Shown: positions 3,501 to 28,541 of the stretch, piece by piece | Layout: each line of letters starts with the position of its first letter | Position numbering within the stretch: the stretch's first letter is position 1 | From: an uncultured Saprospiraceae bacterium | GTDB lineage: Bacteria > Bacteroidota > Bacteroidia > Chitinophagales > Saprospiraceae | Length of the DNA: 64,000 bases | Assembly (NCBI GenBank): GCA_937951615.1 | Contig: CALFBH010000075.1 | Coordinates: forward strand, 62,001-126,000 | Direction: 5' to 3' | Notes under the pieces: generated by a model | Database searches by the model: none | What the model saw: the letters and a program-made list of their open reading frames with translations, nothing else | Told to the model about the DNA's origin: nothing | Translations under genes and position numbers: made by a program

Positions 3501-5669
3501 CGTGTTGCAAAAATATTCCCAGGGAACATCAAAATTATTGCCATCGCTGATACCTGCATTATTATTATAAGTGGCGAATAACTGGTTGCACAAACCTGAT
3601 AAATTTGCATCATAACAACCACTGAGTTGATTATTATGAACAATGATGTTTCTCAAACTGGGAATATTACCTAATGTGCTGGGAATACTTCCCGTCAGTT
3701 GATTGTCGGAAACCCACAAAGTGGTCAGGAGATTCATATTGCCAAGTTCGGGAGGAATATCACCTGTTAATTGATTGTTATGAAGGCCCACAGTGCCCAA
3801 ATTATCCAGATTACCCATTTCACTCGGGATATTGCCCGTAAACATATTCTCAAACATGTCCAGAACAGATAAGCTGCTCATATTACCTATTTCAGGCGGA
3901 ATACTTCCAGAAAACTGATTGGTACTCAAGTATAAAACCTCCAGATTGACCAGATTTCCTATTTCAGCGGGGACACTACCGCTCAATTGATTGTCATTTA
4001 AAAATAAATAATTCAGATTGATGAGGTTTCCGATAGTTGAAGGGAGGGTGTCGTTTAGCTGATTGTAGTTGAGATTCAGCCATTCTAAATCAGTCAAATT
4101 TCCCAACTCCGGTGGAATGTTTCCTGTTAAGTTATTATTCGCCAAATCAAGATTAAATACTCGGTTATTTCCATTTGTCAATACACCATACCAGGTATTC
4201 ATTGGCTGATTCAGATCCCATGTAAAGAACCAGTCAGCCCCATTAGTTGCATTATAAAAACTAACTAAAGCAATAGAGTCCTGAGAACTAGAAGAAGGCG
4301 GGTCAAAATAAAGCAGTGCTTCATGTAAATTCAATCGCCCATTACTCACACATTTTCCACTAAGTGCGGGAAGGCTTTCTGCGGAATTGAGTACAGCAGA
4401 TTTGATGTCAGTAAAAGATTTATTTGGATAACGTTCCCACAATAGAGCACAAGTTCCGGTAACAAGCGGCACAGCCATGGAAGTGCCATCAATCTGCCCA
4501 TAACTATTATTAGGAAAACAACTGGTGATAGCTGTTCCGGGAGCCGCGATATCGACGGTATTGGCTCCGAAATTGGAAAAGCTAGTTAGTGAATCATTAT
4601 GATTTGTTGCGGTCACAACAATAATATTATCGATATTATATCCAGCAGGATAAACAGGACTGAGACCATTATCGTCTCCGATATTGTCGTATGAGCCATT
4701 GCCAGCGGCGGTCACAAACAGATGTCCGCTATTCTCTGCATTTTGTAAAGTCTGAAAAAGCGCGGTAGAATAGGCGCCGCCGCCCCAACTGTTATTACTT
4801 ATTGGTATGCCCATGTCTACGGCATAAGCAAGTGCTGCTATAGCGCCTGAAGAAGAACCTGTTCCATTATCACCAAGAAATTTGAGTGGAGCTATTTGTA
4901 CATCCCAGGTGACTCCGGCTATACCTATACCATTATTTCCGGCCGCGCCTAATATGCCCGCTACATGAGTACCGTGGAAATTATTACCGTAAGGATTATT
5001 ATCATTATTTTTAAAATCCCAGCCAATGAAGTCATCTATGTAGCCATTACCATCATCATCAACACCATTTTCATCACCTGAATCAAAAACCCAGGCATTG
5101 CCGTTCCATTCCAATACTTTTCCATCTCCATCGGCATCTTCGGCAAGGTTTTGCCAGATATTATCTATCAGGTCTTCGTGTCCCCAGTCTATACCCGTGT
5201 CGATAATGCCTACCACAATAGATGGGCTGCCAGTAGCGATGTCCCATGCTTCAGGAGCGTCTATATCCGCATCGAATGTACCATTGGTCTGCGCGGTGTT
5301 GTGCAGCCCCCATTGATTGCTGGTCATTGGGTCAGCTGGATAAGTTGCATGGGTGGTGTAGATATAATTCGGTTCTACAAACTCAATATCGGGATGGTTT
5401 TTATAAGCGTTTACGAGGTACTGAATATCTGTTTTTGATGAATTTTCATTAATTTTCCATAGTTCAATATTGGTCTGTGGAAAAGTTTTCAAAACAGTTG
5501 CTTTCATCCCGTCTTTAAGGCTATTCTTTTGGTTTGCTGATTTTCCAGCTTTCATTTTTACCAATAGTTGATCGGGGATATAATTTCCGGATTGAGCGAA
5601 AGCCATAGCCGTGAGGAAACAGAGGGCTATAAGCAATATTGCTGATTTTTGGTCACAGGGAATATGCAT
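504..5669 (-). CDS. Secreted subtilisin-like (S8) peptidase with three plant-type LRR cassettes, dockerin-like segment, SprB-like repeat and C-terminal surface domain
   Basis: GIIDTGIDWGHEDL, NFHGTHVAGI, DGTSMAVPLVTG catalytic blocks; many LTGNIPPELGNLSNL repeats; GDFNNDGIANYHDVLYWG; TPPYSYTWSTGETTQSISDLSAGLYSVTVSDA. Confidence 0.93.
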   Translation of the reverse strand: MHIPCDQKSAILLIALCFLTAMAFAQSGNYIPDQLLVKMKAGKSANQKNSLKDGMKATVLKTFPQTNIELWKINENSSKTDIQYLVNAYKNHPDIEFVEPNYIYTTHATYPADPMTSNQWGLHNTAQTNGTFDADIDAPEAWDIATGSPSIVVGIIDTGIDWGHEDLIDNIWQNLAEDADGDGKVLEWNGNAWVFDSGDENGVDDDGNGYIDDFIGWDFKNNDNNPYGNNFHGTHVAGILGAAGNNGIGIAGVTWDVQIAPLKFLGDNGTGSSSGAIAALAYAVDMGIPISNNSWGGGAYSTALFQTLQNAENSGHLFVTAAGNGSYDNIGDDNGLSPVYPAGYNIDNIIVVTATNHNDSLTSFSNFGANTVDIAAPGTAITSCFPNNSYGQIDGTSMAVPLVTGTCALLWERYPNKSFTDIKSAVLNSAESLPALSGKCVSNGRLNLHEALLYFDPPSSSSQDSIALVSFYNATNGADWFFTWDLNQPMNTWYGVLTNGNNRVFNLDLANNNLTGNIPPELGNLTDLEWLNLNYNQLNDTLPSTIGNLINLNYLFLNDNQLSGSVPAEIGNLVNLEVLYLSTNQFSGSIPPEIGNMSSLSVLDMFENMFTGNIPSEMGNLDNLGTVGLHNNQLTGDIPPELGNMNLLTTLWVSDNQLTGSIPSTLGNIPSLRNIIVHNNQLSGCYDANLSGLCNQLFATYNNNAGISDGNNFDVPWEYFCNTPNADCANITCRQIDSLALVAFYYSADVPNSSLVWNLDQPIDTWYGVGLNQNNCVTTLNLSELNICGELPSEMGNLESLTYFDINENCLSGSIPPEMGQLSNLTYINISNNYLSGNIPPELSNLSNLASLILSGNNLSGNIPPELSNLSNLVSLVLSGNNLSGNIPPELGGLSNLEYLRCSNNFLEGNIPPELGNLSNLVSLFLVNNLLSGTLPAELGNLSNLDALILKDNQLSGCYPPSLTALCNQLNANSNTNSYISDGNNFYTPWEDFCSSGAGDCSTLSCRQLDSLTLSTFYLTNNGATWTNPWDLSQPMDTWMGVTLDGNGCLNELDLSSRNITGNIPPELSNLSSLEVLYLTDNSLTGNIPVELGNMTNLTVLYLSENQLTGTIPVELSNLSNLLQLYLGYNQLTGTIPAELSNISVLRNLYINKNQLTGNIPPELGNCDLRYINFGDNQLTGNLPVEFSNCPNLVKMRLYDNQFTGNIPPEFGVLSNLTQLDVDGNLLTGNIPPELGNLTSILDLQLQNNQLSSNIPPELGNLTTLETLYLHNNQLSGCYDANLISLCFQLETVSNNNASISDGNNFEAAWESFCNAGSGSCTDLVWPGDFNNDGIANYHDVLYWGLAENNTGASRPNATTNWQGQDCPNWSQSLAGINGKYQDGDGNGIVEVQDLQVLIDNYNNTHTLGLPNAILGTTELKMEFTGQTNLTDTTTLLSYNVYLESDGAPATAHGISCSINFGDLPIQSASVNISGSSLQPQQYIDVYDQENNTLEFGLTRTDRTNRLCIGPVVAFETIVIANDLPNGDPFTVSLSNGTRMTADEVSEQANGTSIYGLWTDQGIFGNALSATVSVANEGCGTLGSGLLDVANGTPPYSYTWSTGETTQSISDLSAGLYSVTVSDAMNTAIIIPFEIEGQYLPVYDQNGNLVDCSGSVCPTTLDAANILTGNYQAGISINSDGTVPSSNTTSFKAGQIIILDSGFSVEPNAEFSAEIEACGNN
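3001..3144 (-). repeat. Near-identical 72-bp (24-aa) tandem LRR duplication inside the subtilisin-LRR gene
   Basis: tctggcggaatatttccagacaagttatttccaga... at 3001 and 3073, next unit start at 3145. Confidence 0.85.
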
Positions 5670-12479: not shown

Positions 12480-13364
12480 ATGAACGATAAAATCCAGGTT
12501 ATACAAAATATTTCCTCTAACATACTTAAGTTAAGGTATCGGTTTAAAACAGACAGAATCCTATCCCAGGATATAGATTATGCTTTATCAAATTGGAATG
12601 AATATGCAGAGCATTATGATAAAATAACGGATTATTTTGAGTCGACAGCTATCTCTAAAAATCCTTTTTTAAACAAGCTGATTTTAAGAAAATTTTATAA
12701 GCAATACCTATCTTTTATTGATAAATCTGCTGACTGGGCAGCATCGGCAGTAGAGGAGAAATTCATAATTGGTGAAAATCGAATTATAAAAAAATATGAG
12801 AAAGTCTTTACTAGTGGAATGAGTCAGTTAAAAGAGAGAGAGAAGAGCCTTCGAGAGATAGAACCTTTACTTTTAAAACTTCAAGAAAATGCACAAAATA
12901 GGATCTATGATAATAGACAGCTACATGATGAAACTCAGATTAGTTTAAATAAATTTTTTTCCATTTATCTACATAATTTTTTAGATAGATTTCATTCTAT
13001 TTTGCTAAAATGTGAATCTCCTTTAGAAGAGGCTTTCTTCATAGGAATGATTGCTTATGAACCCTTTAATGACTTCTGGCTTTTTGATGACCACTTTGAT
13101 GGACAAGTCAATGTCGGAAATTATAGGCTAGATTTTGCATATACTGATAAAGAAAAAAATATTTATATAGATATAGAATTAGATGGACACAATTACCATG
13201 AAAGAACAGAAGAACAAGCTGTTAGAGACAGACAAAGAAATATAAAATTACAAGAAAAAGGCTGGTATGTGCTTAGATTCCATAGAAAAGAAATTGAAGA
13301 TGATTTAAAAGGCTGCATACTTAGAATAAAGAAGTTTTATGAGATGAAAGCTAATCAGGGATAA
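12480..13364 (+). CDS. Protein with C-terminal DUF559/VSR-like PD-(D/E)XK nuclease-fold domain
   Basis: C-term: CESPLEEAFF...NYRLDFAYTDKEKNIYIDIELDGHNYHERTEEQAVRDRQRNIKLQEKGWYVLRFHRKEI. Confidence 0.7.
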   Translation: MNDKIQVIQNISSNILKLRYRFKTDRILSQDIDYALSNWNEYAEHYDKITDYFESTAISKNPFLNKLILRKFYKQYLSFIDKSADWAASAVEEKFIIGENRIIKKYEKVFTSGMSQLKEREKSLREIEPLLLKLQENAQNRIYDNRQLHDETQISLNKFFSIYLHNFLDRFHSILLKCESPLEEAFFIGMIAYEPFNDFWLFDDHFDGQVNVGNYRLDFAYTDKEKNIYIDIELDGHNYHERTEEQAVRDRQRNIKLQEKGWYVLRFHRKEIEDDLKGCILRIKKFYEMKANQG

Positions 13365-25726: not shown

Positions 25727-26614
25727 TTATAATTGTTCAATTTCTTCGACAGAAAGTCCTGTGTATAGAGCAATTTTGTCAGTTGGCATCTCGTCTTTTT
25801 TCATGGCACGTGCTGCTTCTGTTGCCTTTCGTTTTTCTCCTTCGACTTTTCCTTCTGCTTTTCCTTCTGCTCTTCCTTCTGCTCTTTGTCTTTCGCGCTC
25901 TTCTCTCTGCATTTCCAATATACTCCCCTTTTTTGCCATAGACATTTCAAACCACATCCGTTGTTCAGATGTCATTTTACTCTTATCTACTTTTTTTAAT
26001 GCCTGTGCTATCCAGTCTTCTTGTGCAAATTCAGGCAATTGCTTGCTGTCTTTTATGGTATCTGATTGTTTCATGATGTAAATCAGTTTATCTAAATCCT
26101 TATTAATTTTTGGCGGTTCTTTGTCAAATTTACCAATTTCTACAATGATATGCACGATTTGGCGGTCTAATTCTTCTCCTACCTGGTTCTTTAACGTTGC
26201 AAAGTGGTAATATTGTTCCGATTTAGGATAAATATCTTTAGCTAGAAAGCTGATGCAATAAATCGGAGTCAGGCTGTCAAATTTGTATTTTCCACGTTCA
26301 ACAAGGGTATTCAAACGATGAAAAGCATAAAATTTTGCCCTTTGGATAAAGTGTTTGTAATGTCCCAACTGCATCTCAACAATAAAATAGTTTCCGTTTT
26401 CGTCCTGACAAGAAAGATCATAAACACCTCCTCTGGACTCTTTAGTAAGTCCGGGGAATTCATTTCTCAAAAATTCTATTTCCTTTATTTCGTGAGGACT
26501 CTGAATAAGTGCTGCCAGCGATTTTCTTAGGAACAGCGTATCTGCTTCGTCTGCAAAAGTGACTTTGAAGCCATAGTCGGAAAGTAGCGAAATAAATCTA
26601 TTGGTGTTTTCCAT
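25727..26614 (-). CDS. Rpn family recombination-promoting nuclease / PD-(D/E)XK transposase-like protein
   Basis: ISLLSDYGFKVTFADEADTLFLRKSLAALI; YDLSCQDENGNYFIVEMQLGHYKHFIQRAKFYAFH; C-term RAEGRAEGKAEGKVEGEK. Confidence 0.9.
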   Translation of the reverse strand: MENTNRFISLLSDYGFKVTFADEADTLFLRKSLAALIQSPHEIKEIEFLRNEFPGLTKESRGGVYDLSCQDENGNYFIVEMQLGHYKHFIQRAKFYAFHRLNTLVERGKYKFDSLTPIYCISFLAKDIYPKSEQYYHFATLKNQVGEELDRQIVHIIVEIGKFDKEPPKINKDLDKLIYIMKQSDTIKDSKQLPEFAQEDWIAQALKKVDKSKMTSEQRMWFEMSMAKKGSILEMQREERERQRAEGRAEGKAEGKVEGEKRKATEAARAMKKDEMPTDKIALYTGLSVEEIEQL

Positions 26615-26654: not shown

Positions 26655-27530
26655 TCAATCAAACGTTTTTGTTTCTTTGTCAATTTGACCACCAAAACTC
26701 AAAAAAGTCAAATTCAAAATCAGCAATTCATAAAACATAACGTGGATAAAAAGATAAGTCATCGTATGAAATGCGATAGGCAAAACGAACCACCACCAGT
26801 CATACTTTTTGGTAAAAAAACCAATCACAAATAAACTTTCCATCAATATCGCAACCGTAGAAGCAACAAAAGACCAGCTCGGATGTGCAATGAAAAAAGT
26901 ATAAAAAGGCGTCAGCCAGCCATCCGGATTCAGGGCGATGTGCGTGGCGTTTTCGTTCATGAAATTAGCAACACCTTGTTCGTAATTAAACAAACTACCT
27001 CGAAGCAATTTCCATAAAAAAGCAGAAAAATAAACCCACAAAGTAAAATAGCGCAAGCCTTCCCACAGCAACGTAAACGTCCGATCATTTTTAAACCAAA
27101 AAGGAATACTGACCAACAAAATTCCAACCATACAATGCGTATGGTGTATGCCAAACGAATTATAAGACACAAAATAAATCAGGTACAACAGCCCAAAAGC
27201 AATCGGGAATATCCGCTTTTGCACAAAAAAGAAACTCCCAAGCGCAGCCACAAACAATAGCACATCAAAGACGATAGCCAGCCCATAATGACTGCTAATA
27301 AATTGCGGCAACTGCCCTAAATGCAATGCCCAATACGTCAAATCCACATAAGGATAAATAAACACTGGTGCTTCCAACTGACTCAGCAAAACATGTGTCC
27401 ACCAGCGATACAGCAAAGACAAAATCACGCCACCAAAGACGAGTCGAGACAGCCATTTTCGCTGCGCCATGTCCAGCGTCGGAAGCTCTTTTTTTCGCTG
27501 CCGACCAAAGATGAGTCGTCTATAATCCAT
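26655..27530 (-). CDS. HTTM-like integral membrane protein (start uncertain, ORF extends to 27599)
   Basis: Multiple TM segments; SYNSFGIHHTHCMVGILLVSIPFWFKNDRTF, KLLRGSLFNYEQGVANFM. Confidence 0.65.
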   Translation of the reverse strand: MDYRRLIFGRQRKKELPTLDMAQRKWLSRLVFGGVILSLLYRWWTHVLLSQLEAPVFIYPYVDLTYWALHLGQLPQFISSHYGLAIVFDVLLFVAALGSFFFVQKRIFPIAFGLLYLIYFVSYNSFGIHHTHCMVGILLVSIPFWFKNDRTFTLLWEGLRYFTLWVYFSAFLWKLLRGSLFNYEQGVANFMNENATHIALNPDGWLTPFYTFFIAHPSWSFVASTVAILMESLFVIGFFTKKYDWWWFVLPIAFHTMTYLFIHVMFYELLILNLTFLSFGGQIDKETKTFD

Positions 27531-28056
27531 ATCGGATAAGTGCTTGCGAGGTGAGTAAATCCAATTGTCCATTGGGTGCATATTGCCAGCTTTGTACATC
27601 GACTTCCAGCGTTTGGATGTCTTGGTGTGTGCTGCGTTCTAAGTAGCGATGCAGCCAGTTTTCAAAGGCTGAATATTGGGTGGAGTCATTGGTCATCTGC
27701 TCGACGAGTGGCTGGAAAGCTGCATATTGCCCACCGAGTTTTTGCTGAAAAAACTGTCGGGTCGGGTCAATATCAGACTCCGTTTTCATGTCGTGATAAT
27801 GACTGATTGTACCGATAATAATATGTCGATTGGCATCTATCAATTCCTGTGTGTAGTTGAAGGGCTGACCATTTATTTTGATGCTTATGATTTCCTGTTT
27901 AGGCTGCACTTCCACTTTTTCAGAAAACATTGCCCATAGGAAAAAGGGCGTAATTTGATGTCCGGCGAGGGTGAGGAGGAGCGTTAGCCCGCAGAAAATG
28001 GCGATGCTTCGGTATAGGGTTTTGCTGTGGGATATTAGGTGTTGGAAGTAGGTCAT
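27520..28056 (-). CDS. Hypothetical membrane-anchored protein upstream of HTTM-like gene
   Basis: Likely start MTYFQHLISHSK at 28056; longer ORF start lies in the palindrome and is rejected. Confidence 0.6.
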   Translation of the reverse strand: MTYFQHLISHSKTLYRSIAIFCGLTLLLTLAGHQITPFFLWAMFSEKVEVQPKQEIISIKINGQPFNYTQELIDANRHIIIGTISHYHDMKTESDIDPTRQFFQQKLGGQYAAFQPLVEQMTNDSTQYSAFENWLHRYLERSTHQDIQTLEVDVQSWQYAPNGQLDLLTSQALIRYGL

Positions 28057-28062
28057 AAGTTC

Positions 28063-28181
28063 TTGCCTCACCCCCAACCCCTCTCCATCCTTCGGCGGAG
28101 AGGGGAGCCTGTCTTTTTGCCAAAGGCAAAAAGCGTAAATCCCCCTCTCCACTGCGTGGAGAGGGGCTAGGGGTGAGGCAA
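28063..28181. repeat. Cloverleaf-like compound palindrome, 25-bp outer arms plus three internal hairpins
   Basis: ttgcctcacccccaacccctctcca (28063-28087) / tggagaggggctaggggtgaggcaa (28157-28181), 23/25 complementary; inner ctttttgccaaaggcaaaaag (28113-28133) and cccctctccactgcgtggagagggg. Confidence 0.92.
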
Positions 28182-28541
28182 CTGAGCTCGAATTTTATCC
28201 AGCACAGCCTTCATATTTTGTAATTCTTCATTTTTAATTCTAAGCACTTTAATACCCTGCTCATTTATAATACCGTCTCGAATGCGATCACGTTCCTTCT
28301 GATTCTCATGTATTTTACCATCCAATTCCAAGACTAATTTTGCAGCAGCACAATAAAAGTCAGCCACAAAAAAAGACTTCCAATTATCCATATTTGTATG
28401 ATAAACAATAGGATGTTGCCGACGAAATTTGAAGCCATCCAACTGTCGATTTCTGAGATATTGCCAGAGTATATCTTCTTCAGGCGTAGCCAATTGACGC
28501 AACTCCCGCACCCGGCTTGTAATAGATTGACCTTTTTTCAT
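28167..28541 (-). CDS. DUF559 domain (VSR/PD-(D/E)XK-like) protein
   Basis: ATPEEDILWQYLRNRQLDGFKFRRQHPIVY; VADFYCAAAKLVLELDGKIHENQKERDRIRDGIINEQGIKVLRIKNEE; last residues LPHP and stop lie in the palindrome. Confidence 0.92.
   Translation of the reverse strand: MKKGQSITSRVRELRQLATPEEDILWQYLRNRQLDGFKFRRQHPIVYHTNMDNWKSFFVADFYCAAAKLVLELDGKIHENQKERDRIRDGIINEQGIKVLRIKNEELQNMKAVLDKIRAQLPHP

Follow-up and report, generated by a model that had tools for sequence, protein, structure and literature searches.

A DUF559 nuclease gene joined to a REPIN-like palindrome in an uncultured Saprospiraceae bacterium: a probable nuclease-palindrome element

Introduction

In REP/RAYT systems (REPtrons, TnpA-REP; REPINs) a small nuclease gene, encoding an HUH tyrosine transposase, lies between similar short palindromes that are dispersed elsewhere; these palindromes are lineage-specific, form inverted pairs with a spacer and have a GTAG tag before the hairpin. 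Homing endonucleases of the EDxHD family, to which DUF559 belongs (PMC9403480), cut vacant target sites, into which they are then copied, and behave as selfish insertions, in-frame or intergenic, with solo and occupied alleles; the member I-Bth0305I has a long DNA-binding region. Rickettsia palindromic elements (RPEs) insert in-frame into proteins (PMC10969869). Vsr nucleases, which are of the same superfamily as DUF559, have a mismatch repair role, nicking T:G mismatches beside a cytosine methylase motif, and no palindromes have been described for them. The DUF559 member VsrA of Caulobacter has been called Vsr-like, and it triggers the SOS response in cells without a cytosine methyltransferase (PMC12907096). 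In the open-access literature that we searched, we found no prior report linking DUF559 to palindromes, and no such link appeared in the open-access literature on REPINs and RAYTs, EDxHD nucleases or GIY-YIG nucleases either. Here we describe a DUF559 gene that is joined at its 3' end to a palindrome.

Results

The window, a stretch of 64,000 nucleotides from an uncultured Saprospiraceae bacterium, carries on its minus strand a gene for a DUF559 protein of 124 aa (28167-28541; Pfam PF04480, E=7e-30, residues 7-121) and, at the 3' end of this gene, a REPIN-like palindrome of 119 bp (28063-28181), recognised by its fold, arm match and pattern counts. As the sequence-only reading had stated, the DUF559 coding sequence terminates within the right arm of the palindrome, where minus-strand TTGCCTCACCCCTAG encodes LPHP and the TAG stop (28167-28181, minus strand). 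The same reading had described a cloverleaf, with outer arms enclosing three hairpins. The arms (28063-28087 and 28157-28181) are indeed complementary at 23 of 25 positions (92%), but the cloverleaf had to be corrected: of the hairpins at 28078-28105, 28114-28132 and 28142-28166, two have bases in common with the 25-bp arms. A cloverleaf, made of a 12-bp outer stem and the three hairpins, is therefore an alternative to a long rod and is the less stable of the two as DNA (-34.5 vs -41.5 kcal/mol). A REPIN-like arrangement describes the unit better, with a pair of inverted REP-like units, CCTCACCCCYAR with CCCCTCTCC-loop-GGAGAGGGG, and a spacer. Unit 1 (28063-28105, plus strand; sequence and exact core repeats) consists of TTGCCTCACCCCCAA and the hairpin CCCCTCTCC-loop-GGAGAGGGG, the inverted unit 2 (28142-28181, minus strand; sequence, arm match and core repeats) consists of TTGCCTCACCCCTAG and the same type of hairpin, and the fold places the central spacer hairpin TTTTTGCC-AAA-GGCAAAAA between them (28114-28132). 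With up to three mismatches allowed, CCTCACCCCNNNCCCCTCTCC occurs twice in the window vs 0.00 expected, and the fold z-score of the palindrome against shuffles is -8.7 for DNA and -9.2 for RNA. Neither a GTAG nor a CGTC tetranucleotide stands beside the hairpins, which, as far as can be read by eye, are preceded by CCCCYAR. Around the DUF559 gene Rfam gave no family above its gathering score; we rejected an RNA-family reading of the palindrome, for which there were just sub-threshold chance matches to miRNA hairpins.

Upstream of the DUF559 gene lies a sodium:solute symporter gene (PF00474; 28547-30079, minus strand), with 5 bp between its stop and the ATG of DUF559; no palindrome was found on this 5' side, and the symporter gene is, as far as known, outside the DUF559-palindrome unit. 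The downstream neighbour (27520-28056, minus strand), which has no Pfam match, begins 6 bp past the palindrome. The window also holds a gene of the Rpn family of recombination-promoting nucleases/putative transposases about 1.5 kb from the palindrome (25727-26614, minus strand; TIGR01784, E=2e-28) and, within a 300-aa ORF, a second and weaker DUF559 match (13080-13334, plus strand; E=1e-9) with no clear palindrome beside it.

PF04480 has six matches in the source assembly (6.96 Mb, 142 contigs). Each of the four other short DUF559 genes of this genome is adjoined by REP-like palindromes, found by eye and with a repeat finder, and their sequences differ from that of the window palindrome. Loci L002 and L005, which encode similar DUF559 proteins, have one palindrome family in common; exact-pattern copies of it number 19 across the genome, 4 of them less than 250 bp from a DUF559 gene, vs 0 for the reversed-pattern control. 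Palindrome families of the genus g43 are dispersed as well. The window palindrome, searched with up to two mismatches, occurs at a single site in the assembly, beside the DUF559 gene and on its 3' side only; as a 5' palindrome and dispersed copies are both lacking, the window element may be inactive here.

That DUF559 genes often lie beside such repeats had been stated in the sequence-only reading, and we found the association to be correct and much stronger than it was put there. We chose 80 DUF559 loci by similarity to the DUF559 proteins of the source genome, 74 of which were testable, from Bacteroidota, Chloroflexota, Cyanobacteria, Cloacimonadota, Ignavibacteria, Aminicenantes, Patescibacteria and others, and asked, irrespective of palindrome family, if any repeat is common to the 350 bp on the left and the 350 bp on the right of the gene. 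This was so at 54 of the 74 DUF559 loci vs 7 of 243 size-matched short ORFs and 14 of 637 ORFs of all lengths on the same contigs (DUF559 vs control ORFs, odds ratio 91, Fisher p=4e-36), in a set which includes a few near-duplicate loci and with control ORFs from a crude caller. Off-centre positions, taken as a further control, gave 15/1078. Among the 32 DUF559 loci of a second set, drawn from genomes that belong to the phylum of the window, 24 had a shared flank repeat; the two-sided signature is missing at 27% of DUF559 loci. The shared repeats are whole palindromic units, 43 in direct and 12 in inverted orientation (n=55), the DUF559 stop lies inside the downstream repeat at 14 of the 55 two-sided loci, and the median distance from stop to repeat is 12 bp. 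We also looked for the two outcomes named in the sequence-only reading as refuting it: the CTCACCC arm with a hairpin core was present at 25 of 74 DUF559 gene ends and at 3 of 679 unrelated ones, hence neither a lack of enrichment near DUF559 genes nor an equal frequency at unrelated gene ends was seen. The palindrome type CCTCACCCC...CCCCTCTCC is linked to DUF559 as proposed, but it is one among many families, each with its own DUF559. Exact-pattern enrichment alone was discarded as a measure; it gave six matches at four loci within ~100 bp of DUF559, with the other ~70 dispersed. At one locus next to CCTCACCCC palindromes (L042:10001-10366) the DUF559 stretch has a stop inside the matched coordinates, which is either its last codon or internal.

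Gene and palindrome also covary in sequence. The more alike two DUF559 proteins are, the more similar are their flanks (99 loci), and for pairs that are less than 70% identical and come from different organisms (n=4679) Spearman rho is 0.307 (permutation sd 0.049, 0/500). Examples cross phyla, such as locus L095 of Chloroflexi with L109 and L070 of Cyanobacteria. Judged by these sequence comparisons, each DUF559 lineage has its own palindrome.

A search for empty sites had likewise been proposed, and both empty sites and sites with a solo palindrome do exist among congeners. We compared alleles in eight genomes of the genus g43. At locus A, G069 has neither palindrome nor gene, G038 and G247 have one palindrome of ~165 bp, and G026, G054 and G100 have the order palindrome-DUF559-palindrome (G100 by gap length and local alignment). 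Locus D is occupied in G026, G100 and G247 (G247 by gap length), with a solo palindrome in G038 and G054; the solo has the spacer of the right-hand copy in G038 and that of the left-hand copy in G054. As the solo spacers thus match both flanking copies, gene loss by recombination fits locus D better than gain. Loci B and G have empty alleles in which palindrome and gene are absent together. All four combinations of presence at A and D occur among five genomes, so that gain, loss or exchange took place more than once; the branches of a flank tree built for polarising gain vs loss were unresolved. The solo palindromes of G038 are mostly common to its close congeners. We therefore dropped them as a sign of present mobility, which is evidently low, with slow turnover. 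For the window's own site, an orthologue of the downstream neighbour was found in four congeners with neither palindrome nor DUF559 upstream of it. G208, the one candidate among the congeners, was rejected as an empty allele since the symporter is also missing there and the site is not a clean empty one.

Among the top-scoring PF04480 matches of the phylum, many fall within ORFs of 800-1400 aa. DUF559 modules are inserted in-frame in LeuRS (L011, L013, L036), MetH (L025, L030), HsdR (L014, L016), HsdM (L022) and DNA methyltransferases (L009, L010, L012), the host names being assigned by reading the sequences and not by profile searches. The modules are bracketed by peptides such as SPLPLGEDLGEG or SPTGRGAGGEG, which are translated palindromes. 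In one LeuRS family of 30 genes, the module occupies one loop in 3 and the site is empty in 27. These palindromes, like RPEs, lie in-frame within unrelated protein genes (PMC10969869). RPEs have no known enzyme, while the DUF559 element has a nuclease gene inside or between its palindromes. At the window locus the palindrome arm contributes merely the 3' end of DUF559 and its stop. In-frame insertions of a palindrome only, giving peptides such as SSPSGRLGGT, ISSPSGGGREGAS and SSPTGRGQGEG, were also noticed in LeuRS and HsdR (L013, L036, L011, L016), and in L156, L160 and L167 the LeuRS loop that accepts the module has short HAELVEAP/HSELNSES inserts resembling another translated palindrome.

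The window protein is assigned to the EDxHD/PD-(D/E)XK (Vsr-like) nucleases by Pfam, residue conservation, AlphaFold2/Foldseek and profile match. The residues that are invariant over 28 homologues (T19, E22, W26, F39, R41, Q42, D61, F62, C64, E72, D74, G75, H78, D85 and R101) are all intact in it, and among them D61, E72, D74, H78 and D85 correspond to the catalytic residues of I-Bth0305I. In the PDB, a profile of five DUF559 proteins matched two entries and no others, the endonuclease-like protein 3HRL and the mobile-intron homing endonuclease I-Bth0305I (3R3P, E=9e-6), and Foldseek with the AlphaFold2 model (pLDDT 84) placed the same two structures first (E=7e-4 for I-Bth0305I). The DUF559 protein has an intact active site of homing-endonuclease type, and dN/dS of ortholog pairs in g43 is near 0.1 (0.00-0.19 in 13/14). 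The likeness to EDxHD homing endonucleases lies in the catalytic domain, by profile and fold, and in the insertion habit with its solo and occupied alleles. Unlike them, the 124-aa DUF559 protein is without the long DNA-binding region of I-Bth0305I, its gene is palindrome-flanked, and its in-frame modules remain in the host protein; Rfam gave no self-splicing intron, and no intein was found around the window gene, which stands alone as an ORF.

Discussion

Considering the linkage of gene and palindrome, their covariation, their joint presence and absence, the solo alleles, the in-frame insertions and an intact nuclease under selection, we think that gene and palindrome probably form one nuclease-palindrome element, REP/RAYT-like but with an unrelated enzyme, in which DUF559 is the counterpart of RAYT. 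The likeness to REP/RAYT pairs, suggested in the sequence-only reading, holds for the anatomy and fails for the enzyme. As in those pairs, palindromes flank the enzyme gene more than other genes in the sets compared above, they are lineage-specific, and they form inverted pairs with a spacer; Y1_Tnp (RAYT-type) genes of the same genomes, examined as positive control, showed the same flank signature in 10 of 19 cases. On the other hand, the window gene is PF04480 and not an HUH tyrosine transposase (Y1_Tnp, PF01797), a C-rich CCTCACCCCYAR arm is found where REPs have the GTAG tag, and the RAYTs in these genomes have palindromes other than those of DUF559. DUF559 thus has the anatomy of RAYT with palindromes of its own. 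As neither the HUH enzyme, which defines REP/RAYT, nor the GTAG tag is present, we do not regard the element as a member of REP/RAYT, though it would work alike.

We infer a cycle in which the DUF559 protein would recognise its cognate palindrome, probably as a dimer and perhaps on hairpin extrusion, and would nick or cut there. Repair of the break would copy from another copy of the palindrome, which would spread in this way, with or without the gene, and so be mobilised by DUF559. Copying at palindromes would leave the DUF559 gene between two palindromes or inside one, and recombination between the flanking copies would remove the gene, leaving a solo palindrome.

Alternatively, the palindromes may be moved by some other enzyme, a RAYT for example, or by replication slippage, with DUF559 as cargo or simply tolerated where intergenic regions are rich in palindromes. 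Candidates for such an enzyme are at hand, since RAYT-type Y1_Tnp genes were present in all 15 genomes checked, including the source genome (contigs C1, C37, C38 and C123, none on the window's contig), but RAYT flanks are unlike DUF559 flanks, with best scores of 12-21, near background, and one exception of 43.5. The palindromes are far more numerous than DUF559 genes and recombination can yield direct flanking copies, as this explanation would have it; yet the signature occurs in just 2.9% of other short genes, several of the few control matches are either simple repeats or nucleases themselves (two RAYTs and two GIY-YIG), and covariation with the DUF559 sequence is unexpected for cargo. We consider this explanation unlikely. 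That DUF559 serves mainly as a Vsr-like mismatch-repair nuclease of the host, as proposed for Caulobacter VsrA, with incidental palindromes, seems to us quite improbable: it agrees with the purifying selection on DUF559 and with the SOS response to VsrA noted above (PMC12907096), but leaves unexplained the two-flank and lineage-specific palindromes, the in-frame insertions in LeuRS and MetH and the patchy presence among congeners, and VsrA-type and palindrome-bearing DUF559 proteins may have different roles. Finally, we consider it highly improbable that the palindrome acts in regulation or termination so as to limit a hazardous nuclease, with repeats elsewhere reflecting unrelated hairpin use. 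It does stand at the 3' end of the gene, and gene ends of DUF559 show more structure than others (median MFE -43.8 vs -31.7), but we found no intrinsic terminator-like site and no T-run at the window palindrome, and copies occur on both sides of genes, inside coding genes and alone.

If gene and palindrome do form one nuclease-palindrome element, a widespread domain of unknown function would gain a working role, and the origin of the very common C-rich palindromes of the CCTCACCCC...CCCCTCTCC type and its relatives, found in Bacteroidota, Chloroflexi, Cyanobacteria and other groups, would be accounted for, as would low-complexity peptide insertions in housekeeping proteins, e.g. LeuRS and MetH. 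RAYT would then be one of several solutions to one lifestyle. Nuclease and palindrome would come as naturally matched pairs, whose specificity would be testable by swapping.

A wider and more tentative proposal is that short bacterial palindromes are divided among HUH RAYTs, EDxHD DUF559 proteins and stand-alone GIY-YIG proteins, each maintaining and spreading its own set, with the palindrome as both target and flank; if so, such pairs would have produced many of the orphan repeats as well as the SPxxxxGRGxGGEG-type peptides in annotated proteins. Such a general partition among small nucleases is possible, its GIY-YIG side having been examined less carefully than DUF559. Stand-alone GIY-YIG genes of the same phylum had repeats on both flanks in 19 of 24 cases, of other families and with about three resembling tRNA repeats, and this similar signal tells somewhat against our reading of DUF559, since small mobile genes of more than one kind may have repeats at their flanks. 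The flank repeats of GIY-YIG genes at L117:3883-4221 and 4791-5129 and at L275-L304 include TTCGACAAGCTCAGCCTGACA- and GTCATTGCGAGG-type palindromes, and the L117 GIY-YIG protein ends in GFDKLSLTDE, which is encoded by the palindrome. At G053:C34:6991-9748 we noticed a tandem array of some eight GIY-YIG genes that recur every ~364 bp, a pattern that suggests their amplification between direct repeats.
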